From: Kiloniellaceae bacterium
GTDB taxonomy: Bacteria > Pseudomonadota > Alphaproteobacteria > Kiloniellales > J153
DNA length: 64,000 nt
Reading direction: 5' to 3'
Assembly: GCA_021776135.1 (NCBI GenBank)
Contig: JAJFGL010000002.1
Location: 1-64,000 of the forward strand
Position numbers and translations under genes: made by a program
Shown here: one piece after another, positions 36,754 through 50,547 of the stretch
How positions within the stretch are numbered: position 1 is the stretch's first letter
Layout: every line of letters starts with the position of its first letter
The notes under the pieces: model-generated
Told to the model about the DNA's origin: nothing
What the model saw: only the letters and a program-made list of their open reading frames with translations
Databases searched by the model: none

Positions 36754-37293
36754 TTAGGAACGAGACTTTCCGGCGATGCGGGCGAAGTACACCGCCAGGC
36801 GGTTGCCGATTTCATCGGAAATTTCGCGCAGGGCCCGCTTGCGCGCATCGGATTCCGAAAAGAGAGTCGCGAATTGGCTATCGAGAATATTATAACTGTT
36901 GATGGAACGGCTGCGGCCCTTGAACAGTTCTTGTCCGGTGCCCGTTTCGCTCAAGACGAAATCGGCGAAGACCGTCAAGTTCGACCGGGTCGCCGTTTCG
37001 TCCTTGCGGATGCCCAGGTCCTCGAGGGTTTCCGATATTCGTATCTGGAGATTATAAGTCGGCTCGCGGGGCTGCCCCCGGGGGTTCAGACGATCGCGCA
37101 GCAAATTATGAAGCTGTTGGCCGACCCGGTCGGGCAAGGGTTGAATCCGGACCTGGGCCAAGAGGTCTTGGGTTCTTTGCCCGGAATCGTTACGGCCATA
37201 GAGCGGCTGAAAGCCGCAGGCCGAGACCGCCAGGGCTAGGCAGAGCGCGCCGCCGGCCAGACCGGCACGCCGCAGGGCCTTAAACCACGACAT
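36754..37293 (-). CDS. lptE: LPS assembly lipoprotein LptE
   Basis: Outer-membrane lipoprotein plugging the LptD translocon for lipopolysaccharide. The 179-residue protein has an N-terminal signal with lipobox LAVSAC (Cys26) and then GFQPLYG, the family hallmark. The start overlaps the leuS 3' end by 14 bp, the conserved leuS-lptE-holA arrangement. Confidence 0.93.
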
Positions 37294-39850
37294 TGACGAT
37301 CCGATTTTTCACCACGATGACCTTGCGCGGCGCCCTGTCTTCGACCAGGCGTTGAATCGCAGGGTCGGCCAGGGCGCGTGCGCGGGCCGTTTCTTCCCCC
37401 GTGTCGCGCGGCAGCTCTAGGGTCGCGCGCAGCTTGCCGTTGACCTGAACCGCGACGGTCACCGTCTCGTCAACGATCAGCGCCGGGTCGGCCTCCGGCC
37501 AAGACAAGGTGACCAGCAGCGCCTCGTGGCCCAGGCTGCGCCACATTTCTTCGCCCAGGTGCGGCATCATGGGGGTGAGCAAACGGACCAGCACTTCGAA
37601 GGCTTCGCGCAGGGCCCAGAAGTCGCCGCCGTCCTTGGCTTTAAATCCGGTCAAGGCATTGGCGAGTTCATAGACCTGCGCGACCGCGCGGTTGAAACGA
37701 AAGGCCTCGATATCGCGGGTTATGCCGTCGATGGCCTTGTGCGCCGTGCGCCGCAGACTCAACGCGGCCGGGCCCAGGGTTTCGGGCAGGGGCGCGCCCG
37801 CCGGGGGCAGGTTCGGCGCGGCGTCGCCGATCAGGCGCCACAGCCGCTGAATAAAGCGCCAGGCGCCCTCGATCCCCGCCGCGGTCCATTCCATGTCCCG
37901 CTCCGGCGGGCTGTCGGACAGCATGAACCAGCGCGCCGTATCGGCGCCGTAGGTGCCGATGATGCTTTCCGGGTCAACGGTGTTGTTTTTCGATTTGCTC
38001 ATTTTTTCCGAGCGACCCAGGGTCACCGGCGCGCCGCTGTCGCGGTGAACGACCGCGCCGCCGGCTTGCTTGTCTATCTCATCCGGCAGCAGCCAGCGCC
38101 CCTCCCGGTCGCGGTAGGTCTCGTGACAAACCATGCCCTGGGTGAACAAGCCCGCGAAGGGTTCGTCGTGTTCGGTGTAGCCGAAACGTTTCAGGCCGCG
38201 CACGAAAAAGCGCGAATACAAGAGATGCAGAATAGCATGCTCGATGCCGCCGATATACTGATCGACCGGCATCCAGCGATCGACTAGGTCCGGGTCGAGG
38301 GGCTTTTCAGTATCTTGCGGGCAGCAGAAGCGGGCGAAATACCAGGAAGAATCGACAAAGGTATCCATGGTGTCGGTGTCGCGCCGCGCCGCCGCGCCGC
38401 AGGACGGGCAGGGGGCGTTCTTCCAGGTCGGATGATGGTCCAGGGGATTGCCCGGTTTGTCGAAGCTGACATCCTCCGGCAGCAGAACCGGCAAGTCTTC
38501 CTTGGGCACCGGCACCGGGCCGCAGGCGGGGCAATGAAGGATGGGAATCGGGCAGCCCCAATAGCGCTGGCGCGATAGGCCCCAGTCGCGCAAACGGTAC
38601 TGTACGGTGCCGGTGCCGATATCCTCGGCCTCGAGGCGGGCGATGACCGTTTTCTTGGCCTCCGCCACGCTCATGCCGTCCATGAAACCGGAGTTGTAGA
38701 TGCGCCCGTCGCCGACATAGGCGGTATCGCCAATGGCGAAGTCCTTGGCGTCTTCGCCGGCGGGCAGGACCACCGGTATGACGTCCAGATCGTATTTGCG
38801 CGCGAAGTCCAGGTCGCGCTGATCCTGCGCCGGGCACCCGAATATAGCCCCGGTGCCGTATTCCATGAGCACGAAGTTCGCCACGTACAGGGGCATGGTC
38901 CGGCCTTCCACGAAAGGGTGCGCCACTTTCAGTCCGGTGTCGTAGCCTTTCTTCTCGGCGGTCTCTATCGCTTCCTCGGTGGCGCCCAAACGGTCGCATT
39001 CGGCGACGAAGGCCGCCAAGTCCGGGTCGCCGGCCGCCAGTTCCGCCGCCAGGGGGTGGTGTGGCGAGATGGCGAAAAAAGACGCGCCGTACAGAGTATC
39101 GGGCCGGGTCGTGAAAATCTCCAGCGGCGCCTCGCGGCCCAGAATATCGAAGAAAACCCGCGCGCCCTCGGACCGCCCGATCCAGTTCTTTTGCATGATC
39201 CGGACCTTCTCGGGCCAACGGTCCAGACTGTCCAGCGCCTGCAGCAATTCTTGCGCGAAGGCGGTGATCTTGAAAAACCATTGGGACAGCTTGCGCCGCT
39301 CGACCGGCGCGCCGGAGCGCCAACCCTTGCCCTCGATCACCTGCTCGTTGGCCAGGACCGTCCGGTCGACCGGATCCCAATTAACCCAAGACTCCCGGCG
39401 GTAAACCAGATCGTGGTCCAGGAATTCTAGAAACAGGCGCTGCTGGTGCTTGTAATAGCTGGGATCGCAGGTCGCGATTTCGCGGGCCCAGTCGATGGAC
39501 AGTCCCATCATTTTGAGTTGCGCGCGCATGGCGTCGATGTTCTTGCGGGTCCAGTCGGCCGGGGGCACGCCGCGTGCCATGGCCGCGTTCTCGGCCGGCA
39601 GTCCGAAGGCGTCCCAGCCCATGGGGTGCAGCACCGAAAATCCGCGCGCCCGTTTATAGCGCGCGATCACATCGCCGATGGTATAATTGCGCACATGGCC
39701 CATGTGGATGCGCCCCGAGGGATAGGGGAACATCTCGAGGACATAGTATTTCGGCTTATCCGTTTCCGTGTCGTGGGCCGTGAAGCAACCGGCGCGATCC
39801 CACGCTGCCTGCCACCGGGCCTCGGATTCCTTGAAATTATACCGGCTCAT
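37280..39850 (-). CDS. leuS: Leucyl-tRNA synthetase
   Basis: The 856-residue class I synthetase. HIGH motif is HMGH (49-52, in [19 protein letters not shown]), KMSKS is [14 protein letters not shown], the CP1 editing domain contains [12 protein letters not shown], and the C-terminal domain ends [12 protein letters not shown] zinc-type cysteine pair appears at CPACGPVPV. It is followed by lptE with a 14-bp overlap. Confidence 0.98.
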
Positions 39851-39892: not shown

Positions 39893-40459
39893 TTATTGTA
39901 GGCCGGCAATGCGAAGCTGGCGTGCCCTGACGAGTATGGCGTTTTCCAGATCGGCGCCGGTTTGCGGTTCAACCCCGGCGTCGATCCATTTGCCTTCGGC
40001 GCCCAGGAGTTGCCGGAACACGCTGGTGCGCAGGCCGTCGGCCCGCAACTCGCGCCCCAAAATATAGACCGTGACCTTGAATCGTTCCTCGCGCGCTTCC
40101 GGCGGCGTGTACCAATCCGTGATGATGACCCCGCCGAAGGGATCGGCCGAGGCCAGGGGCATGAAGGACATGGTGTCGAGGGAGGCGCGCCAGAGGAAGC
40201 TGTTGACGCCTATGCCGGTCCCGGTTCCCTCGCCGCCGGGCACGGGCGGCGCGTCGGAGCCGCCGATGCCAAGCCCGCCGGGGCCGAAGACGCTTCCCGT
40301 ATTGCCGTAACCGCCGGCATGACCGCCCTTGTTGCCCTTGCCAAAGGTCTCCGGGTACTCGGTCTCGGGATCGGAGTAGGCGCAGGCCGTTAGCAGCGCC
40401 GCCGCCAAACCGATAGCGCCGAAGCCGCGCAGCAAGGTGAAGATGCCATTTCGTATCAT
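39893..40459 (-). CDS. DUF3576 domain lipoprotein
   Basis: A 188-residue lipoprotein with signal peptide and lipobox LLTAC (Cys26), then a Gly-rich segment (residues 40-80) and the DUF3576 core NSFLWRASLDTMSFMPLASADPFGGVIITDWYTPPE. The family is alphaproteobacterial and typically precedes leuS, as here (42 bp). It is probably an envelope protein; the role is unknown. Confidence 0.9.
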   Translation of the reverse strand: MIRNGIFTLLRGFGAIGLAAALLTACAYSDPETEYPETFGKGNKGGHAGGYGNTGSVFGPGGLGIGGSDAPPVPGGEGTGTGIGVNSFLWRASLDTMSFMPLASADPFGGVIITDWYTPPEAREERFKVTVYILGRELRADGLRTSVFRQLLGAEGKWIDAGVEPQTGADLENAILVRARQLRIAGLQ

Positions 40460-40622
40460 CGCGTCCACCGCAGTTTCCACGAACCGGGCAAGCGGGACGA
40501 TACCCTGTCTCAGCCCTATCCGTGACCTATCTTGCCAAGATTCCAAGTCCCCTGCATAGCGCGAAACGCGGGCCCGCGCAATGTTTTGAGGTCCGCGCGC
40601 CGCGCCGTCCAAGCCGGTATTT

Positions 40623-41750
40623 TCAGTAGCTCCAGGCGAATTCCCGGGCCATTTCTGGAGGTATCGCTTCCCAGGCCCTGTCGCGCTGCTCCTGGCTGAA
40701 AACCTGCCGCCATTCGTCGCTCTGACCCTGGCGCAGGTGCACGGTTTCGGCCTTGGCGCCGGCGGCGTAGCTGGATTGCGGGATATCGTAGAAATCCAGG
40801 ACTTTGCTGAAGTAGGCATCGGGCTCGGCGAGGAAGGATTCGAAACTCATGAACAAAACCGACAAGGGCGGATCCGCCTGCGCCGCGATGCCCTGCCAGC
40901 CGGACAGGAAACGGATCTGAAGCGGCAGATAATGCTCGATACACCAATCGAGCGTGGCGTCCAGGCCCGCCTCCATGATTCCCGAGGGGGGCACGATCTT
41001 GCGCCACAAGGGGCCCATGACCCGCTGGCCAACGTCGTCGCGCACGAAATGGGCCCAGGATAGGGCGGCTTGCCTGGGGTCGCGGTGATGAACGATCAGG
41101 CGGTCGATGCCGGCGCCGCGCAAGACCGCGACGTTGTGGGCCGTCGGCCCGATATGCTCCTTGATGGCCACTCCGCCCTTCGCCGCCTGGGCGACGCGCG
41201 AAGGAATCGCGCAGCAATCCGGAAACAAACCGAGCGAGAAATAGCATTGAGCCAGGCCCAGACCTTGCGCCAGCTTATTCCAAATACTCTCGCTCGCCGA
41301 CTTCGGCAGGGTCGTGATGACCATGGCCGGCAGGCCGCGGGCGATACTTTTTTTGCGCCGGGCGCTGAATTCAGCCGGGCCCGAGCGAACCGGATTGAGC
41401 GGCAGGACCAGCTCCTCCATGAGGGTTTCCGCCTCGCCCGGGCGGTTCTGCGCCAGCAGGAAATTGATCAGCGCGGCGCGCGCGCTCATGTCCTCGGGCA
41501 GGCGCTGCATCTTGGCGCGGGTCAGGTCGACCGCGCGCGCCAAGCTGGCTTGGCCCTGGGCGTCCCGGCCCTCCCGGTAGTCGAGGGAGGCCAGCATGAC
41601 CAGGGTATCGACGTGGTCCGGCGCGAGCCGCGAGATGCGCTGGTAAATTTTACGCGCCCCGGCCAGATCGTTCTCGCGATGCTTCTTCTGCGCCATGCCG
41701 AAGGCCTGGGACAGGGAGACCGTTTGGGTCGTGGTCTGAGCGTCGTTCAA
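40623..41750 (-). CDS. Sulfotransferase with N-terminal TPR-like region
   Basis: A 375-residue protein. Residues 12-115 are helical repeats of TPR type (AFGMAQKKHRENDLAGARKI; MLASLDYREGRDAQGQASLARAV). Residues 143-375 form a PAPS-dependent sulfotransferase: the 5'-phosphosulfate loop is TTLPKSASES (146-155) and the 3'-phosphate motif is HHRDPRQAALSW (221-232). The start appears to be TTG at 41750; an ATG at 41696 is the alternative. It is divergent from the first redoxin/oxygenase fusion and is the left border of the sulfotransferase-dioxygenase region. The acceptor is unknown. Confidence 0.85.
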   Translation of the reverse strand: MNDAQTTTQTVSLSQAFGMAQKKHRENDLAGARKIYQRISRLAPDHVDTLVMLASLDYREGRDAQGQASLARAVDLTRAKMQRLPEDMSARAALINFLLAQNRPGEAETLMEELVLPLNPVRSGPAEFSARRKKSIARGLPAMVITTLPKSASESIWNKLAQGLGLAQCYFSLGLFPDCCAIPSRVAQAAKGGVAIKEHIGPTAHNVAVLRGAGIDRLIVHHRDPRQAALSWAHFVRDDVGQRVMGPLWRKIVPPSGIMEAGLDATLDWCIEHYLPLQIRFLSGWQGIAAQADPPLSVLFMSFESFLAEPDAYFSKVLDFYDIPQSSYAAGAKAETVHLRQGQSDEWRQVFSQEQRDRAWEAIPPEMAREFAWSY

Positions 41751-41926
41751 GGTGCCGGATCCGTGTTTTTGGGCGCGAGGCGCGGAGTATGTCGGACTTG
41801 GAGCGGTGCGGCAAGAATCGGGTTTTGGCGAGCGCCGGCGTTGTACGCGCGAGCGCTGTCATGCTATGGCTCGCGGGCTTTTTCGCATGCGCCGTCTTGT
41901 TCCTCGAGGGCGCGGAGGCCGCTATC

Positions 41927-43051
41927 ATGCCGCAGCCACCACAGACGCGTCCGCGCCATTTGGATGTGGGCGATCGATTTCCCGATTTCGCCTGGCGCGA
42001 TACCCAGGGGCGCCACGTTTCGCTCACCCAGTCGGCGCACGCAGGGCGTGTCAGCCTGGTTCTTGTCTGCCCGGCCGGCACCGGCGCCGGGGTTCAGCGT
42101 GAACTGACGAAATTACGCGCTCTGGAGGAAAAGTGGCGCGGCCTTGGGCTTGGTGTTTTTGCCGTGACTCCCGCGCCGCCCGATGAAAACGCGGTGCTGA
42201 AGGCCAAGCTGGAGCTGCCGTTTCCACTTCTGTCCGATGCGGGTTTCTTCGCTGGACAGGCCCTGGACTTGGCGCCCGCCACCGCGAAAAAGAATGCCGG
42301 GGACTGCGCGGTCGCGGTCGTCGATGCGAACCAGCGTTTAGAAAAGTTGATTGCGCCCGCCGGGGGCGGCCGCCAGGCGGACCGGGCGCTGAAATATTGC
42401 GAAAAGCGCGGGGTCCAGGACAGCGCCGCCGTGAACGGGCAGGCGCCGGTTCTGATTTTGCCCCGGGTGCTCGACCCAGATCACTGCGCCCGCCTGGTCC
42501 GGGCCTTCGAGAGCGGCGAAACTTTCCAAGGCGGCGTCGCCAGTTCCGAACACGGCGGCAACGTTCCCCTGCATAAGATCAAGTCCCGCCAGGACGTGGC
42601 GCTCGCCGATACTGGGCCGGAAGCGCGGGCGCTTTTCGAAATTTTCCGCTACCGTTTGTTTCCGGAGATAAAAAAGGTCTTCAACTATCGCGTGACCCGC
42701 GCGGAAACCCTGCGTCTGGGTTGCTATGAGGCGGATAGCGGCGGCCATTTCGCGGCCCACCGCGACGACACCACGCCCTATACCGCCCACCGGCGTTTCG
42801 CCATGTCCATCAACCTCAACACCGGCGGCTACGAGGGTGGGCGCCTGAGCTTTCCCGAATACGGCCCCGGACTTCTTAGCGCGGACACTGGCGCCGCGAT
42901 CGTCTTTTCCTGCTCGTTATTGCACGAGGTGACGCGAATCGACCGCGGCCGGCGGTTCGTCTTGCTTGGCTTCTTTTACGACGAATCTGGGCAGGCGATC
43001 CGGGAAAAGCTTCTTGCGCGCGGCGATGAAGGCCGGGGTTCCGGGTCTTAA
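41927..43051 (+). CDS. Thioredoxin-like/2OG-Fe(II) oxygenase (prolyl 4-hydroxylase-type) fusion, paralog 1
   Basis: A 374-residue two-domain protein. Residues 11-150 resemble an AhpC/TSA redoxin (HLDVGDRFPDFAWRD), but the peroxidatic position in CPAGTGAGV has no cysteine, so peroxidase activity is unlikely. Residues 175-355 form a prolyl-4-hydroxylase-like oxygenase with iron ligands His278, Asp280 (AHRDD) and His333 (SLLHE) and a 2-oxoglutarate arginine at 342-343. The ATG at 41927 has GGAGG eight bases upstream and aligns with the paralog at 45526; an in-frame ATG at 41789 would add a hydrophobic, signal-like stretch. Confidence 0.82.
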   Translation: MPQPPQTRPRHLDVGDRFPDFAWRDTQGRHVSLTQSAHAGRVSLVLVCPAGTGAGVQRELTKLRALEEKWRGLGLGVFAVTPAPPDENAVLKAKLELPFPLLSDAGFFAGQALDLAPATAKKNAGDCAVAVVDANQRLEKLIAPAGGGRQADRALKYCEKRGVQDSAAVNGQAPVLILPRVLDPDHCARLVRAFESGETFQGGVASSEHGGNVPLHKIKSRQDVALADTGPEARALFEIFRYRLFPEIKKVFNYRVTRAETLRLGCYEADSGGHFAAHRDDTTPYTAHRRFAMSINLNTGGYEGGRLSFPEYGPGLLSADTGAAIVFSCSLLHEVTRIDRGRRFVLLGFFYDESGQAIREKLLARGDEGRGSGS

Positions 43052-43286: not shown

Positions 43287-44420
43287 ATGAGAAAGCAATT
43301 ACTGCTTGGTACGACGGCCCTGCTGGCCGGCGCCGTGGCCATGCCGAACTACGTATCGGCGGAAGAGCCACTGCGCTTGCAGGTTAGGGGTTTCAAGAAC
43401 GAATACTTCGGCATCGGCGATGTCGACGTCGACGGCGGCACGGACAGAAATGCCACCGGCGAGTTCAGCGACGGCGAAATCCAGTTCCGTGGTTCGACCG
43501 ATCTCGACAACGGCCTGACCGTTGGCGTACAGGTCGAGCTGGAAGCCGATTCCCGTGGCGACCAAATCGACGAAGCCTATGCCTTCGTGCAGGGCGACTT
43601 CGGTAAGATCGTGGCCGGTGGCGAGAACCTCGCCAACTACAACACCTTCTGGGGTGTGACCGCGCCGGCCGTCGGTACTCCGATCAACTCCGGCTGGATC
43701 ACGGTGTTCGTGCCCCCGCCAGCGGGTCACGAGCTCAGCTTCCGTTCGACGATCACGACCACGAACGTCGATATCGGTAACGACGAAAACGCGATCAGCT
43801 ACTACTCGCCGCGTTTCTCGGGCTTCCAGTTTACGGCCGGTTACGCTCCGGCGGTGACTGACTCCGGCGAAGGCAAGACCTTCACCGGCTTCCAGGCCGA
43901 TACGACCACCGAATACCACAACGCCTTCGGTGTCGGCTTGAACTTCTCGGAAAGCTTTAACGGCGTCGACGTCAAGGTCGCCGGTGGCTACAACCGGATC
44001 GAAGCTCCGGATAACGTCGAAGCCCTCGGCGGCGACGATGTCCAGCAGATTAAGGTTGGCATCAACCTCGGCTTTGGCGGTTTCTCGGTCGGCGGTTCCT
44101 ACGCCAACGAGTTCGACGGCAAGCTCATCGTCAGCGGCGGTGCCGTCGGGCGTGACGAGGAAGGCCAGTCCTGGGACGCCGGCGCGAGCTACTCGACCGG
44201 TCCTTGGGGCGTCAGCGCGACCTATTTCCACGGTGAGTGGGAAGGTGACGTTGGCAATGGCGACGAGGAAGTCGACGCGTTTGTCGGCGCCGTGTCCTAC
44301 GCCCTCGGGCCGGGGATCAAGACCTCGTTCTCGGTCATGTACGGTGCGCTCGAGGACGATGCGACCGGCAACAAAGGTGAGGCCACCATGGGCATCATCG
44401 GACTTTCCGTTAGCTTCTAA
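43287..44420 (+). CDS. Gram-negative porin
   Basis: A 377-residue outer-membrane beta-barrel. A signal peptide (MRKQLLLGTTALLAGAVAMPNYVSA) precedes EEPLRLQVRGF. Alternating beta-strand patterns (QFRGSTDLDNGLTVGVQVELEAD; VGINLGFGGFSVGGSYANEF) and the C-terminal ...GIIGLSVSF ending in Phe fit the Porin_4 family. Codon use is strongly biased toward a few codons, and a strong terminator follows, both signs of high expression. It lies among sulfotransferase and oxygenase genes. Confidence 0.93.
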   Translation: MRKQLLLGTTALLAGAVAMPNYVSAEEPLRLQVRGFKNEYFGIGDVDVDGGTDRNATGEFSDGEIQFRGSTDLDNGLTVGVQVELEADSRGDQIDEAYAFVQGDFGKIVAGGENLANYNTFWGVTAPAVGTPINSGWITVFVPPPAGHELSFRSTITTTNVDIGNDENAISYYSPRFSGFQFTAGYAPAVTDSGEGKTFTGFQADTTTEYHNAFGVGLNFSESFNGVDVKVAGGYNRIEAPDNVEALGGDDVQQIKVGINLGFGGFSVGGSYANEFDGKLIVSGGAVGRDEEGQSWDAGASYSTGPWGVSATYFHGEWEGDVGNGDEEVDAFVGAVSYALGPGIKTSFSVMYGALEDDATGNKGEATMGIIGLSVSF

Positions 44421-44441
44421 GAACGCTTAGCTACGACGACG

Positions 44442-44469
44442 AAGGGGGCGGCTTTGGCCGCCCCCTTTT
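44442..44469 (+). terminator. Strong intrinsic terminator after the porin gene
   Basis: GGGGGCGGC (44444-44452) pairs perfectly with GCCGCCCCC (44457-44465) around TTTG, extended by two A-T pairs, and is followed by TTTTCTTTTC. It lies about 20 bp past the porin stop. Confidence 0.93.
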
Positions 44470-44643: not shown

Positions 44644-45495
44644 ATGCCCGGCATACTTTGGCTCGCCTCTTATCCGAAGTCCGGCAATACCTGGCTGCGG
44701 GCCTATTTAGCCAATCTGTTCAGCAATCCGGCACGTCCGGTGCCGATCAACGACTTGCCCAATCACGTCCTCGGCGACAACTTCCTGGTGCACTACGAAC
44801 AGTTCTCCGGCCGAAAGGAGGCTCAGTTCTCGGCGGAGGATATCGTACGCCTGCGGCCCCAGGTGCATCGATGGTTCGCGGCCTCGCGGCGCGATACGGT
44901 CCTGGTCAAGACCCATAACGCCTGTGTCCTGGCGGACGGCCAGCCGCTGATCACCCCCGCCGCGACCGCCGGGGCGATCTACGTGGTGCGCAACCCGATG
45001 GATGTGGCGGTTTCCTTCGCCAGCCATTACCAGGTCGACATCCAGCGCGGCGTGGACCTGATCTGCGACGAAAACCATAGGTTGCCCTCGGTACCGGGCC
45101 AGCTCGAACAGGTTTTGCTGTCCTGGTCGACCCATGTACGCAGCTGGACCAAGGCCCCCGGCATGCGCCTGCATGTCATGCGTTATGAGGACATGACAGG
45201 CGCGCCGTATAAAACTTTCGCCGGGCTTTCCGGTTTCCTGGGCCTGCCCGAGGAGCGCAAGCGGATCATGCGCGCGATCCGCTTTTCTTCGTTTCGGGAG
45301 CTCAAGAAGCAGGAGCGGGCCACGGGTTTCGTCGAGGCGCGGCCGGACGGCAAGGCCAAGTTCTTCCGCGCCGGCAAGGCCGGCGGCTGGCGCGCGGCCC
45401 TGAGCGAAGACCAGGTGCATCAGATCGTCGAGGCCCACGGCGAAACCATGGCCGAATTCGGCTACCTCGATCCAGCAGGCAAACCGGCCGGGTAA
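44644..45495 (+). CDS. Sulfotransferase, paralog A
   Basis: A 283-residue Sulfotransfer_1 protein. The 5'-phosphosulfate loop is SYPKSGNTWLR (9-19) and the 3'-phosphate motif is VVRNPMDVAVSF (114-125) with the conserved Ser124. The C-terminal KFFRAGKAGGWRAAL corresponds to the RKGxxGDWK motif that binds PAPS. It is over half identical by eye to the sulfotransferase at 47366. It lies 223 bp after the porin. Confidence 0.9.
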   Translation: MPGILWLASYPKSGNTWLRAYLANLFSNPARPVPINDLPNHVLGDNFLVHYEQFSGRKEAQFSAEDIVRLRPQVHRWFAASRRDTVLVKTHNACVLADGQPLITPAATAGAIYVVRNPMDVAVSFASHYQVDIQRGVDLICDENHRLPSVPGQLEQVLLSWSTHVRSWTKAPGMRLHVMRYEDMTGAPYKTFAGLSGFLGLPEERKRIMRAIRFSSFRELKKQERATGFVEARPDGKAKFFRAGKAGGWRAALSEDQVHQIVEAHGETMAEFGYLDPAGKPAG

Positions 45496-45525: not shown

Positions 45526-46665
45526 CTAGGCTAGTGGCGCGCTTTGCTGACGCCGGGCGGCCGCCCCCTGGGCATTGCGTTGCCGCAAGGCCTCATCCGC
45601 CGCGCCCCACATGAAGCCGGACAGGATAAAGCGCGTTCCCTTCGTCACAACCTTAGCTTCGTGAAGCAAGGAACATGAGAAAAGCACGCCGTCTCCAGCC
45701 GCTGGATCGTAAACCATGTCGGCGAATTCAGGAAACCAGATGCCGCCGCCCTCGTAGTCGCCGGTATTGAGGTTGACTGTCACGGCGAAGCGCCGATGCA
45801 TATGCGCGGGGTCGAGGTTGTCGCGATGGGGCGCGAAATGCCCGCCCTCGCTGGCCGGATAGGCGACAACGAAGAAGGGTTCGTAGTGCTGGATATTGAA
45901 CTGGAAGGCTTGCCGCACGGCCTCCTGAATACGCGGCCCGAGAGTCGCGACGATCTGGGCATGGAGCGCCTTGTTGCAGAAATGATCGTAACACACGCGT
46001 CGCTGCGCCGCTTCGTTGACCGGCTCGCCGAAAAGGCTTGTTTTGCCGACCTTTCCGGATTGATGCGAGGCCTCCCAAGTCGTTATAAGCATCCGACATT
46101 GCGCCGGACTCAAGAGGCGCGGGATGCTTAGTACGGGGACAAAACCCTTATCGTTCCGCCTTTGGCCCGGGATCGCCGCCTCGCAAATCGCGCTTTTTAT
46201 AGCGGCTTTGAACTCGCTGGTAGAGGTGAAGGGAACCACAAAGCGGATGCTTCGATCCGGGTCGGTCACGAGGGCAAGGATATTGGCCCGTGGCGCCGTA
46301 GTCCCCGCCTGGTTTTCACGCTTGGCGCGGAACAGAACGGCAAGGTCGCCGCGGGTATCGGCCAAGACGGAAGTTTCTAAATGAAGAGACCTTGCCAAGC
46401 CGTAGGCTAGGTCCGCCGTGCCGACAAGGGCGATTGCGGCATTCGGCTGGGTAGGACCCGCCGTTTGGACCGCGGCCTCGAAAGCCTTTAGCGCCGCGTT
46501 AGCGGCGGCGCTGTCCTTGGACTCCGCCGACAAAACTGCGAAGGGACCTGGCGGTGCCATAAGAATACTGAAATGGCGGCCATGTTGATCCGGGCCAGAT
46601 ATGTTCGGAATTTGATCCCCGATGTCGAGTTTGAATTCAGAGGCTGGCCAGTGCGGGGCGTTCAT
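45526..46665 (-). CDS. Thioredoxin-like/2OG-Fe(II) oxygenase (prolyl 4-hydroxylase-type) fusion, paralog 2
   Basis: A 379-residue protein with the same architecture as the fusion at 41927. The N-terminal redoxin-like domain (about 12-160, DIGDQIPNISGPDQHGRHFS) has no catalytic cysteine. The C-terminal oxygenase has His280 and Asp282 (APHRDN), His335 (CSLLHE) and Arg345 for 2-oxoglutarate, plus the shared VNLNTGDYEGG. It is the third gene of an apparent operon with a sulfotransferase and a DUF6445 protein. Confidence 0.84.
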   Translation of the reverse strand: MNAPHWPASEFKLDIGDQIPNISGPDQHGRHFSILMAPPGPFAVLSAESKDSAAANAALKAFEAAVQTAGPTQPNAAIALVGTADLAYGLARSLHLETSVLADTRGDLAVLFRAKRENQAGTTAPRANILALVTDPDRSIRFVVPFTSTSEFKAAIKSAICEAAIPGQRRNDKGFVPVLSIPRLLSPAQCRMLITTWEASHQSGKVGKTSLFGEPVNEAAQRRVCYDHFCNKALHAQIVATLGPRIQEAVRQAFQFNIQHYEPFFVVAYPASEGGHFAPHRDNLDPAHMHRRFAVTVNLNTGDYEGGGIWFPEFADMVYDPAAGDGVLFSCSLLHEAKVVTKGTRFILSGFMWGAADEALRQRNAQGAAARRQQSAPLA

Positions 46666-46730
46666 GGGGATAATCTAGCTTAGTTTTCCCGCGGCATCGC
46701 CATATAAATAGGAACGCTTCGGTATGGCGG

Positions 46731-47363
46731 TTAGGCCGGCGCCGCGCGCGGATCGGCCGATTCGAAGAACAGCAATTGAACAAGGCGGCCATTCTCGATC
46801 GTATCGCCGAAATCCACGCCGCTGGTATGCCACATCCAGGGCCGGAACAGGACGCAGCGGTTGAACTTCATGGGCAGCAGCATGACCCGGTCCCATCGGT
46901 CCAGATGATGACCATCGTCGTGGATGAGGTGATGAACCGCCTCCTTGCGGGTCGCGATCCCATAGATTTCCTGAGCCTCTTCATCGCTCAGGGGGGCGCG
47001 GTCTGTGCGGTATTTTCGGTGCCGGAAAAACTCGGTCCCGCCCTGGCAATCTTCGTCGCGGGTCAGGTAGACAAGTCCGGCCCAGGTCTTTCCGATATCG
47101 ATATGAACCTCCGCCGGCCGGTGGCTGCCTTGGAGCGAATAGCGGCAGCGCCCATGGGTGCTGCGTGCCGCGCCGGCGACTTTTTCGCGCAGGATGTAGC
47201 TGAACATCTCGTCCGCGTCCGGCGGCAGTATGGTTTCCCGCGACGTTCGGCCGGGATAGTAAACCTCGCCCGTGGGCACGGGATAGCTTAGTTCCAGCGC
47301 CGTTTCGCGAAGCTTTTCGGGATCGGCGTAGAAATCGTCGATGATGATCGCGGTTTGCTGCAT
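46731..47363 (-). CDS. DUF6445 family protein, probable 2OG-Fe(II) oxygenase fold
   Basis: A 210-residue protein. An HxD pair (His87, Asp89 in VHIDIGKTWAGLVYL), a distal His179 in RPWMWHTSG and Arg193 in NGRLVQLLFF reproduce the iron and 2-oxoglutarate ligand order of 2OG-dependent oxygenases, although the family is catalogued only as DUF6445. It starts two bases after the stop of the upstream sulfotransferase. Activity is inferred from the motif pattern. Confidence 0.78.
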   Translation of the reverse strand: MQQTAIIIDDFYADPEKLRETALELSYPVPTGEVYYPGRTSRETILPPDADEMFSYILREKVAGAARSTHGRCRYSLQGSHRPAEVHIDIGKTWAGLVYLTRDEDCQGGTEFFRHRKYRTDRAPLSDEEAQEIYGIATRKEAVHHLIHDDGHHLDRWDRVMLLPMKFNRCVLFRPWMWHTSGVDFGDTIENGRLVQLLFFESADPRAAPA

Positions 47364-47365
47364 CT

Positions 47366-48232
47366 TTAACCGTTCAATCCAGCGGTGCTAGTTTCAGGCC
47401 GGTAACCGAATTCGGCCATGGCTTCTCCGTGGGCCGTCAGGATACGCGCGAGATCCTCGGCGCCCAAGACTTCCCGCCAGGACCCGGCCTTACCGGCGCG
47501 AAAGAAGGGCGATTTGCCGTCGGGCCGGGCGTCCTCGAAACCAGCTTCGGTTTCCTGCTTCTTGAGCCGGTCGAAGCTGCTGAATTCAATCGCCCGTTCG
47601 ATACGAGGCGGGTCAGGCGGCAGCCCGAGGAATCGAACGATCCCGGCGAAGGTGTCGTAGGGCGACAGCGCCATGTCCTCGTAACGCACCACATGAAGAC
47701 GCAGGCCGGGCGCGCGGGTCCAGCTATGAAGGTGCCCGGACCAGCTACCCAGATAACGCCGCATCAGGCCGTCGCCCGCCGGTAGGATGTTGTTCGGATC
47801 GCAGAGCTGCGCCACCGCGCGGGCGGTCGGGATTTGAAAGTGGTGTGCGTAGGATACCGCGACATCGCGCGGGTCGCGCACGATATAGATCGCGCCCGCC
47901 GTTGCCGCCGGGGTAATCAGCGGCACCCCTTCGACCTGGACCGCGGCGTTATGGGTTTTGACGAAAACGGTGTCCTTGGAGGCCTCGGCGAAGCCTTGCT
48001 GCACGGCGGGCCTCAGGCGCAGAAAATCGGCGTTGGAGAGTTCAGCCGCGTCCCGCCCGGCATGGCGCGCATAGTCGGAGATAAAATCGTCGGCCAGGCA
48101 ATAGCGGCTCAGTTCGTTAATGGGAACCGGGCGCTCCGCCGGTTTGGGCCCGCTGAACAGGTTCGCCAGGAACGCCCGCAGCCAGGTGTTGCCCGATTTG
48201 GGATAGGACGCGAGCCAACAAATTCCAGCCAA
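47366..48232 (-). CDS. Sulfotransferase, paralog B
   Basis: A 288-residue Sulfotransfer_1 protein close to the one at 44644. The 5'-phosphosulfate loop is SYPKSGNTWLR (9-19), the 3'-phosphate motif VRDPRDVAVSYA (118-129, Ser127), and FFRAGKAGSWRE near the end. The start is TTG at 48232 with GGAG eleven bases upstream. It is the first gene of the operon sulfotransferase-DUF6445-fusion, divergent from yggS. Confidence 0.9.
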   Translation of the reverse strand: MAGICWLASYPKSGNTWLRAFLANLFSGPKPAERPVPINELSRYCLADDFISDYARHAGRDAAELSNADFLRLRPAVQQGFAEASKDTVFVKTHNAAVQVEGVPLITPAATAGAIYIVRDPRDVAVSYAHHFQIPTARAVAQLCDPNNILPAGDGLMRRYLGSWSGHLHSWTRAPGLRLHVVRYEDMALSPYDTFAGIVRFLGLPPDPPRIERAIEFSSFDRLKKQETEAGFEDARPDGKSPFFRAGKAGSWREVLGAEDLARILTAHGEAMAEFGYRPETSTAGLNG

Positions 48233-48335
48233 GGCCGCACTCTCCTACGCTAAGCTTTGGTGGCCCAGGCCACGGGCGCGATGATAGGGTGTGCGCAACC
48301 CGCTACGCAAATCAAACCAAGACCGAAGCCCCCGG

Positions 48336-49028
48336 ATGAATTCCCAAGCCCCAAACCCCGAAACCATTGCCGTCAACATTGCCGAGGTGCGCACGCGTAT
48401 ATCGGCGGCGGCGCGGGCCGCCGGGCGCGATCCGGCCGCCATAACCCTGGTCGCGGTTGGCAAGACCCACGGCGCGGCCTATATCGAGGCCGCACTCGGC
48501 GCCGGCCAAAGGGTCTTCGGCGAAAACCGGGTTCAGGAGGCTTTAGGCAAATTCCCGCCCTTGAAGTCCGCCCACGGCGATCTGGTCCTGCATTTGATCG
48601 GACCCCTGCAAACCAATAAGGCGGACGAAGCAGTGGCGCTTTTCGATGTGATTGAAACCCTGGACCGGCCCAAACTGGCGCGGGTACTGGCTAAGGTCAT
48701 GGCTAAGACCGGCCGGCGGCCGGAGTGCTTCATCCAGGTGAATACGGGCGAGGAGCCGCAAAAAGCCGGCGTCATGCCACGCGAGGCCGATGACTTTATC
48801 GCCTTCGCCCGGGACGAGCTTGGCCTGCCGGTCACCGGCCTGATGTGTATTCCGCCCCAGGACGAGGAAGCGGCCCTGCACTTTACCTTGCTGGCCGGCA
48901 TGGCGGAGCGGAACCGGCTGCTTAAGCTGTCCATGGGCATGAGCGCGGACTACGAGGCCGCCATCCGCTTCGGCGCCACCCATGTCCGGGTCGGCACCGC
49001 GATCTTCGGCGATCGCGAACCGCGATGA
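48336..49028 (+). CDS. YggS family pyridoxal phosphate-binding protein
   Basis: A 230-residue PLP-homeostasis protein (PLPBP/YggS) with a single TIM-barrel. The PLP lysine is Lys43 in VAVGKTHG, with FGENRVQEAL, HLIGPLQTNK and SMGMSADYEAAI as further signatures. The C-terminus FGDREPR is copied in the tandem repeat that follows the stop codon. It is probably cotranslated with the HAD gene. Confidence 0.95.
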   Translation: MNSQAPNPETIAVNIAEVRTRISAAARAAGRDPAAITLVAVGKTHGAAYIEAALGAGQRVFGENRVQEALGKFPPLKSAHGDLVLHLIGPLQTNKADEAVALFDVIETLDRPKLARVLAKVMAKTGRRPECFIQVNTGEEPQKAGVMPREADDFIAFARDELGLPVTGLMCIPPQDEEAALHFTLLAGMAERNRLLKLSMGMSADYEAAIRFGATHVRVGTAIFGDREPR

Positions 49029-49077: not shown

Positions 49078-49691
49078 CCCAGATAGAAGCGGTCATCTTC
49101 GACATGGACGGGGTTCTGTGCGCTTACGATTTCGCTGGCCGTTTGGACCGCATGGCGCGCCTCACTGGCTGCGCGGCCCAGGTCATCGAGGCTGAAATAT
49201 TCGATTCCGGCTGGGACGACCGCAGCGACCGGGGCGAGATCGGCACGGAGGAATATCTGGCCGGCTGCTCGGCGCGTCTGGGGATCCAGGTGACCCGCGC
49301 CGCTTGGCTGGAAGCCCGCGCCGCCGCCATGACCCCGGACCGCGAGGTGCTGGATACGGCCCGCGCCTTGGCGGCCGTTATGCCAGCGGCTGTTCTCACC
49401 AATAACAACCGGCTCATAGCCGAGAATCTGACGGGAATGTTCCCCGAAGTGCCGGAGATTTTCGGGGACCGCGTTTATGTCTCCGCCGTCTTGGGCCTGG
49501 CCAAGCCCGACCCGGCGGCCTACTTGGCTGTCTTGACGCGCCTGGGTGCGGCGGCGCCGGGACGGGCGCTCTTTATCGATGACCGGGCGGACTACATCGC
49601 CGGTGCGGTGCGGGCCGGACTGCAAACTCACTTGTTCAAGAACGCGGCCGGACTCCGCTCCGACTTGGCTAGGCTTGGTCTGCGTCTATGA
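49071..49691 (+). CDS. HAD family hydrolase
   Basis: A 206-residue haloacid-dehalogenase-type phosphatase with the nucleophile Asp11 and acid Asp13 in FDMDGVL, motif II AVLTNNN, the Lys in GLAKPDPAAY and the acidic motif IDDRADY. The cap is small and helical (subclass I). The substrate is unknown. The ATG is the last of three ATGA junctions after yggS. The 3' end overlaps the convergent PhyH gene by 23 bp. Confidence 0.9.
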   Translation: MSAQIEAVIFDMDGVLCAYDFAGRLDRMARLTGCAAQVIEAEIFDSGWDDRSDRGEIGTEEYLAGCSARLGIQVTRAAWLEARAAAMTPDREVLDTARALAAVMPAAVLTNNNRLIAENLTGMFPEVPEIFGDRVYVSAVLGLAKPDPAAYLAVLTRLGAAAPGRALFIDDRADYIAGAVRAGLQTHLFKNAAGLRSDLARLGLRL

Positions 49692-50547
49692 TGAAAGGGC
49701 CGGGCCGGGTAAAGAGGTCCTCGTAATGGACCAGAACCGGTTCGCCCAGGGCGCAAGGCGCCCCGTTCCGCCAGGCCCATTCGCCCCGGTCGCAATTCGC
49801 CGCCGTCACATAGCCGTTGAGGTAGGCGCGCCGGTCGATGGGCGCCGTGTTGGCCCCGCTGCCGTGTATCGTGCCGAGGTGCCAGAAGGCGACATCGCCG
49901 GGGGCGAGCTCCAGATCGACTAGCTTGCCGGGATCTAGCCCCAAGGCCAGGAGGTCGTCTTCGCTCATGTCCGCGTCCATGATCCGGCCGCGCTCGGGGA
50001 AGGCCAGGACGCCCAGCTTATGGCTGCCGGGATAGACCCTCAAACCGCCGTTTTCTGGGCCCTGGGGATCGACGGCGATCATGGTCTGAACGTAAGAATT
50101 TCCTGCATCGCGGTAGGCTTCGGCGGGCCGGCGAAAGTGAACATCCTGATGATACCCGAAATCGGCCCTGGCCGCCCCCGGGGGCTTCCAGTGCATCTGA
50201 TTGATGATCTGCTTCAAATCCCGGCCGATCAGGGGCGCCATGATATCGAGCAGGCGGGTATCGGTCCGATAGGCCGCCAGAATCGGGTCGATATAGGCGG
50301 GCCACTGCACGAAGCGTACTATTTGCTTCAAAACCGGGTCGTCCGCGAGGTGAAAATAAACGTTCCGGTCCCGGTACGATGCCCCACGGGCAAGGCCTTG
50401 GGCGTAGATACGCTCGAAGGCTTGGGTTAGGGCCGCGACATCTCGCGGGCCGAAGACCCCCCGGACCACGCCATAACCCAAGTCCCGGTATTGAGCCAAG
50501 GCCCCAGCGAGGTCAGGTGAAATCGAGCCGTTTGCGGATTGTTGCAC
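49669..50547 (-). CDS. Phytanoyl-CoA dioxygenase (PhyH) family protein
   Basis: A 292-residue 2OG-Fe(II) oxygenase. Iron ligands are His133 and Asp135 (GYHQDVHF) and His228 (IHGSGANT), with Arg240 for 2-oxoglutarate, and RVYPGSHK is the usual PhyH motif. It starts with GTG at 50547. It is the fourth oxygenase in the 41.9-50.5 kb region. The substrate is unknown. Confidence 0.88.
   Translation of the reverse strand: MQQSANGSISPDLAGALAQYRDLGYGVVRGVFGPRDVAALTQAFERIYAQGLARGASYRDRNVYFHLADDPVLKQIVRFVQWPAYIDPILAAYRTDTRLLDIMAPLIGRDLKQIINQMHWKPPGAARADFGYHQDVHFRRPAEAYRDAGNSYVQTMIAVDPQGPENGGLRVYPGSHKLGVLAFPERGRIMDADMSEDDLLALGLDPGKLVDLELAPGDVAFWHLGTIHGSGANTAPIDRRAYLNGYVTAANCDRGEWAWRNGAPCALGEPVLVHYEDLFTRPGPFIIDADQA

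Follow-up and report, generated by a model that had tools for sequence, protein, structure and literature searches.

The window analysed here, a 64,000-nucleotide stretch, belongs to contig C2 of a 3.96 Mb genome (G000) and carries a sulfotransferase gene (ST2), a DUF6445 gene, and a gene for a redoxin-oxygenase fusion (FUS2) in direct succession (Table 1). The original prediction of three open reading frames on one strand, separated by gaps of 2 bp and 65 bp, was confirmed, the strand being the minus strand. ST2 opens with a TTG start codon preceded by AGGAG about 9 nt upstream, only the letters "ag" separate its TAA stop from the ATG of the DUF6445 gene, and the FUS2 start lies 65 bp past the DUF6445 stop. 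No terminator-like sites were found on the minus strand in the 2-bp or the 65-bp gap. This layout of one shared strand, short gaps, and terminator-free junctions suggests that the triplet is an operon whose genes are co-transcribed, and the arrangement is not conserved in the related genomes G001, G002, and G003.

Table 1. Genes of the triplet and of the surrounding locus, with positions in the window
Feature	Position	Strand	Remarks
ST2, PAPS-type sulfotransferase	47366-48232	minus	288 aa, first triplet gene; PF00685
DUF6445 protein, putative 2OG-Fe(II) oxygenase	46731-47363	minus	210 aa; PF20043
FUS2, cysteine-free redoxin-like N domain and putative C-terminal prolyl/lysyl-hydroxylase-like 2OG-Fe(II) oxygenase	45526-46665	minus	379 aa; PF13640
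ST1, conserved sulfotransferase convergent with the triplet	44644-45495	plus	PF00685; homologs at the leuS-porin-yggS locus order-wide
Porin (PF13609), ST1 neighbour, favoured substrate candidate	43287-44420	plus	Porin_4, E 3e-41
FUS1, redoxin-2OG oxygenase fusion, FUS2 paralog	41789-43051	plus	AhpC-TSA, E 1e-10
TPR-sulfotransferase, divergent from FUS1	40623-41750	minus	TPR_19 and Sulfotransfer_1; adjoins DUF3576/leuS in many genera
PhyH-family 2OG oxygenase, just past yggS and HAD; possible accessory	49669-50547	minus	PF05721, E 3e-25
yggS, conserved right border of the porin-sulfotransferase locus	48291-49028	plus	PF01168
leuS, conserved left border	37280-39850	minus	
lptE, with leuS at the left border	36754-37293		
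DUF3576, with leuS at the left border	~39893-40492		

Pfam supported the families first assigned to the sulfotransferase, the DUF6445 protein, and the oxygenase half of the fusion. ST2 matched Sulfotransfer_1 at E 3e-27, with 96 bits against a cut-off of 22, and it conserves the 5'-PSB motif YPKSGNT(W), the KTH and RxP..S motifs, and the C-terminal FFRAGK..W motif. Across a 16-sequence sulfotransferase alignment K12, S13, G14, N15, and T16 were invariant, as were KTH (K89 to H91 in ST1 numbering), R116, and S124. With its PAPS-binding and catalytic motifs intact, ST2 is predicted to act as a PAPS-dependent sulfotransferase, and among solved structures its best matches are two glycopeptide sulfotransferases, Teg12 and Teg14. 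Whole-genome Pfam searches returned ST1 and ST2 as the sole sulfotransferase genes, the TPR-sulfotransferase matching more weakly, and the same genome contains an APS kinase gene for PAPS synthesis.

The DUF6445 protein matched its Pfam family at E 2e-15, and the residues H87xD89…H179…R193 were invariant both among 14 bacterial sequences and in a mixed set of 16 bacterial and phage sequences. Its AF2 model (pLDDT 88.9, pTM 0.85) resembled the Pseudomonas putida prolyl hydroxylase P4H, PHD-type prolyl hydroxylases, OGFOD1, PiuC, and 3bvc, with VIA Z scores of 12.9 to 13.8 overall and of 13.2 to 13.8 for PiuC, P4H, and 3bvc. The predicted fold is thus that of a prolyl-hydroxylase-type 2OG oxygenase, a double-stranded beta-helix with HxD…H…R intact, and the protein is probably catalytically active.

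The C domain of FUS2 matched 2OG-FeII_Oxy_3 (E 1e-10, 42.6 bits), with H280xD282…H335…R345 invariant. Its AF2 model aligned with the collagen prolyl hydroxylase vCPH and the lysyl hydroxylase LH3 at Z scores of about 17, and a sequence match to LH3 was found at E 0.002; this half is therefore a putative prolyl/lysyl-hydroxylase-type 2OG oxygenase. The full-length FUS2 model, with an overall pLDDT of 68, was good in the C domain only, so that a redoxin-like fold of the N domain is putative. No direct Pfam match of the N domain to AhpC-TSA or Redoxin was obtained, and the domain is called redoxin-like because FUS2 resembles FUS1, itself an AhpC-TSA match, over its full length (28% identity over 373 aa, E 3e-39). 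The first 160 residues of FUS2 contain no cysteine, so the description "cysteine-less" was apt, and the domain has neither the Pfam match nor the peroxidatic cysteine of an AhpC/TSA peroxiredoxin. Both putative oxygenases share the double-stranded beta-helix, HxD…H, and 2OG-binding arginine of known enzymes that include P. putida P4H (which acts on EF-Tu), PHD2, OGFOD1/Tpa1, LH3, and PBCV-1 vCPH. They differ from these in sequence, with identities of 10 to 18% for DUF6445 and at most 28% (to LH3) for FUS2, and FUS2 adds the N-terminal redoxin-like domain.

On the far side of FUS2, the window contains a second set of sulfotransferase and oxygenase genes around a porin. An internal ATG at 41927 is the likelier start of FUS1. 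A strong terminator-like hairpin lies between the porin and ST1 (44441-44468), so ST1 may depend on read-through or on a promoter of its own. The PhyH-family gene beyond yggS is kept in all four congeners, including G001, G002, and G003.

This second set is the conserved part of the locus. Around ST1 homologs, the block lptE-leuS-DUF3576-(TPR-ST)-porin-ST1-yggS was found order-wide and also in other alphaproteobacterial orders, at named loci from Sneathiella, Parvibaculum, Tepidicaulis, Dongia, Defluviicoccus, and others. A PF13609 porin adjoined ST1 in all 13 genomes checked (counting G060, where the sulfotransferase came from a separate search), even though such porins number just 1 to 4 per genome. 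Within the 73 named sulfotransferase loci, 30 had a porin no more than 1.5 kb from the sulfotransferase, 28 of them on the same strand and 6 in retrieved DNA that lacked leuS. TPR-ST, FUS1, porin, and ST1, the plus-strand-side set, make up the conserved core, and its chief part is the porin-sulfotransferase pair flanked by leuS and yggS. The flanks are conserved as well, so some of this conservation reflects inherited gene order, as the pairing in the leuS locus may do in part. The pair was also seen as near-identical inverted copies (L193, 2337-6926), as two tandem units with no leuS nearby (L201, 2935-9846), and duplicated or moved as a unit (L207, 5559-7708). Function is the better explanation for copies like those of L193 and L201, whose retrieved DNA lacks leuS. 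In other genera, the interval or its vicinity contains genes for JmjC_2 oxygenases, 2OG-FeII_Oxy_5 proteins, GT41, or TPR-sulfotransferases. JmjC_2-type oxygenases, for example, lie beside the porin/ST locus in L156 (9924-11123), L160 (6226-7443), L162 (9331-10599), and L167 (10068-11264), with one more called by a custom HMM only in L206 (1554-2750).

The triplet had been put forward as the best starting point for the function of the cluster, a place that the congeners do not give it. G001 and G003 have TPR-ST, FUS1, porin, ST1, and yggS but none of the three triplet genes, and G002 has TPR-ST, FUS1, porin, ST1, DUF6445, and ST2, with about 60 bp between ST1 and DUF6445 and no FUS2. FUS1 is thus at the locus in all three, and the triplet was added to a conserved porin-sulfotransferase locus as an insert specific to one lineage. 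The difference between G002 and the other two implies that a single branch of the genus either gained ST2-DUF6445 or was alone in retaining it. FUS2 was found only in the genome of the window among the congeners sampled. Of the five cluster genes that were compared, it had the most atypical third-position GC (z -3.4 relative to 25 genes of the window), its best match among relatives had only 41% identity and came from a different family, and a contig search of genomes with FUS2 alone as the query returned no match. ST2 is 60% identical to ST1, and in a quick tree ST2 and its G002 ortholog fell within the Kiloniellales ST1 clade without being sister to ST1. A recent tandem duplication of ST1 was considered as the source of ST2 and rejected, as ST2, at 60% identity, is no closer to ST1 than the ST1 proteins of other families are and occupies a separate long-stem branch in that tree.

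The combination of enzymes recurs more often than expected by chance. Homologs of the fusion were observed no more than 10 kb from ST1-type genes 8 times against an expectation of 0.31, and after collapsing to 5 lineages the Poisson P value was about 2e-5. A match in Dyella lutea was dropped as a further case, its 35.8 bits covering the redoxin-like stretch only and not the fusion. In L054, a gap of 36 bp separates a TPR-ST gene from the DUF6445 gene that follows it, and in L210 DUF6445 lies 12 bp before a sulfotransferase within the leuS locus, in the reverse of the gene order of the window. The link between sulfation and oxygenase-type genes singled out in the original prediction is to this extent real and recurring. 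A strict tie of DUF6445 to sulfotransferases in bacteria was rejected: the majority of the bacterial DUF6445 genes have no sulfotransferase close by, among them homologs of 55 to 59% identity that sit beside housekeeping genes. The exact triplet had no second bacterial example among the sampled genomes, so the expectation of finding it in relatives held only for ST2-DUF6445, in one of them, and at the family level in phages.

In IMG/VR, a sulfotransferase was found within 4 kb of DUF6445 in 9 of 10 phage DUF6445 groups (defined at 70% identity), several with gaps of 0 to 1 bp or short overlaps, and 6 of the 10 include contigs that carry a 2OG-FeII_Oxy_3 gene as well. The groups were retrieved with same-family queries and are not independent, so these counts describe an association and not a frequency. 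DUF6445, sulfotransferase, and 2OG oxygenase genes are contiguous in L311, L314, and L315, where they adjoin repeat-rich, structural-looking genes and lie near a collagen-like gene with 73 to 82 G-X-Y repeats. Collagen-like genes with 73 to 87 such repeats were located near sulfotransferases in L311 (5899-8814), L314 (7168-8814), and L336 (5385-6746); DUF6445 and a 2OG oxygenase are close by as well in L311 and L314. In L302 (2969-3526), a second P-loop protein with a sulfotransferase-like GTGRCGTT motif is encoded between DUF6445 and the sulfotransferase. The phage sulfotransferases form a different branch from the bacterial ones, and no redoxin domain was detected by Pfam in the phage 2OG enzymes examined. 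On the bacterial side, a search for collagen-like repeats as a possible substrate found none in the window and, in the bacterial loci, one short minus-frame run, in L055.

With its predicted PAPS-dependent sulfotransferase and pair of predicted Fe(II)/2OG hydroxylases, the triplet could serve the hydroxylation and sulfation of a surface protein, most likely a porin, a reading that we favour tentatively and hold at somewhat below an even chance. In such a pathway DUF6445 and the FUS2 C domain would hydroxylate amino acid side chains of a protein while it is in the cytoplasm, and the sulfotransferase would then sulfate the new hydroxyls or ones next to them. The substrate would be a surface-exposed protein, here the neighbouring outer-membrane porin before its export; in phages, the candidates are fibre or collagen-like proteins. 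The redoxin-like domain, which is free of cysteine, would act as a binding scaffold and not as a peroxidase. We infer that the substrate is a protein instead of a lipid or small molecule, that it is the porin, and that the reactions run in this order. The JmjC_2, 2OG-FeII_Oxy_5, GT41, and TPR-ST genes of related loci are of protein-modifier type and were counted in favour of protein modification. Also in its favour are the gene layout and intact active sites, the likeness of DUF6445 and FUS2 to protein hydroxylases, the porin-sulfotransferase pairing, the recurrence of the families in bacteria and phages, and the APS kinase gene. Weighing against it are the many bacterial DUF6445 genes far from a sulfotransferase, the single bacterial occurrence of the exact triplet, the separate branch of the phage sulfotransferases, the phage 2OG enzymes in which Pfam showed no redoxin domain, and the possible share of inherited gene order in the porin pairing.

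The target could instead be a lipid, or LPS or another surface glycan, with the 2OG hydroxylases acting on an acyl chain or sugar, the sulfotransferases adding sulfate, and the porin being a mere neighbour in an envelope locus. Bacterial 2OG hydroxylases and sulfotransferases are known to act on lipid A, lipids, and glycans, lptE belongs to the conserved neighbourhood, and a PhyH enzyme is also present. However, lptE and leuS are commonly linked as housekeeping genes, the triplet comes without glycosyltransferase or lipid-synthesis genes, and the porin-sulfotransferase pair duplicates away from leuS. The DUF6445 and FUS2 folds are nearest to protein prolyl and lysyl hydroxylases, a resemblance that by itself shows no substrate. 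Taken together, a lipid or glycan target appears unlikely, though it retains appreciable weight.

Tailoring of a small molecule or secreted peptide by the triplet, as in the natural-product clusters of Teg12 and StaL or in RaxST-RaxX, seems improbable. Teg12 and Teg14 being the best solved relatives of ST2 speaks for it, as does the precedent of RaxX, which is encoded in raxX-raxSTAB and becomes a tyrosine-sulfated peptide (PMC6637879); however, the neighbours of the triplet are housekeeping genes and a porin, and the genes examined around it included no recognisable NRPS, PKS, dedicated exporter, or candidate for a precursor peptide. Comparably improbable is the absence of any functional link, the porin-yggS interval being an insertion hotspot that gathers unrelated single enzymes: gene content there varies greatly across genera, the GC3 of FUS2 is atypical, and DUF6445 genes are mostly orphans, but the insertions come repeatedly from the same few classes (sulfotransferases, TPR-STs, and Fe/2OG-type oxygenases), the same families are adjacent in phages, often with near-zero spacing, and the fusion-sulfotransferase proximity has the low P value given above.

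Hydroxylation and sulfation of one protein, the reading we favour, has a parallel in the maturation of sulfated plant peptides, where TPST and prolyl 4-hydroxylase bring about sulfation and prolyl hydroxylation of the same extracellular protein. The pairing of the two modifications is alike, whereas the organisms and compartments differ and the two systems are not known to share a substrate. Teg12 and StaL, among the closest solved sulfotransferases to ST2, differ in that this region of the window is free of glycopeptide biosynthesis genes. RaxST of Xanthomonas (PMC6637879, PMC4216712) is likewise a bacterial PAPS-type sulfotransferase whose gene is clustered with that of its protein substrate; raxX-raxSTAB differs in specifying the small peptide RaxX together with export genes, whereas here the neighbour is a porin and there are two putative hydroxylases.

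All of the families involved are already known, and gene-clustered posttranslational modification is a known kind of system. A wider proposal, which we regard as doubtful, is that porins in several alphaproteobacterial orders are hydroxylated and sulfated by enzymes encoded next to them (ST, TPR-ST, redoxin-P4H fusion, DUF6445, and JmjC), that phages use the DUF6445/ST/2OG trio on their own fibre or collagen-like proteins, and that DUF6445 is a new family of protein hydroxylases; such a system would be undescribed. To our knowledge, protein sulfation has been documented in few bacteria. Within the incomplete coverage of the open-access literature, nothing relevant was found on a porin-sulfotransferase locus, porin sulfation, redoxin-P4H fusions, or DUF6445-ST-2OG and phage ST/2OG combinations, nor any publication on DUF6445. 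A sulfotransferase beside a porin in many genera offers a directly testable substrate, and the same three families in phages suggest, without proving, that the decoration of surface proteins and of virion proteins follows one shared logic.

For DUF6445, listed by Pfam as a family of unknown function, the analysis provides a likely enzyme class. PHROGs labels the phage family "minor coat protein", whereas its conserved iron site speaks for an enzymatic role. A second DUF6445 paralog, 44% identical and with no adjoining sulfotransferase, is encoded in the same genome as the window (L058, 5672-6280, on G000:C33), and family relatives of this copy adjoin a gene for a thiamine-diphosphate-type enzyme.
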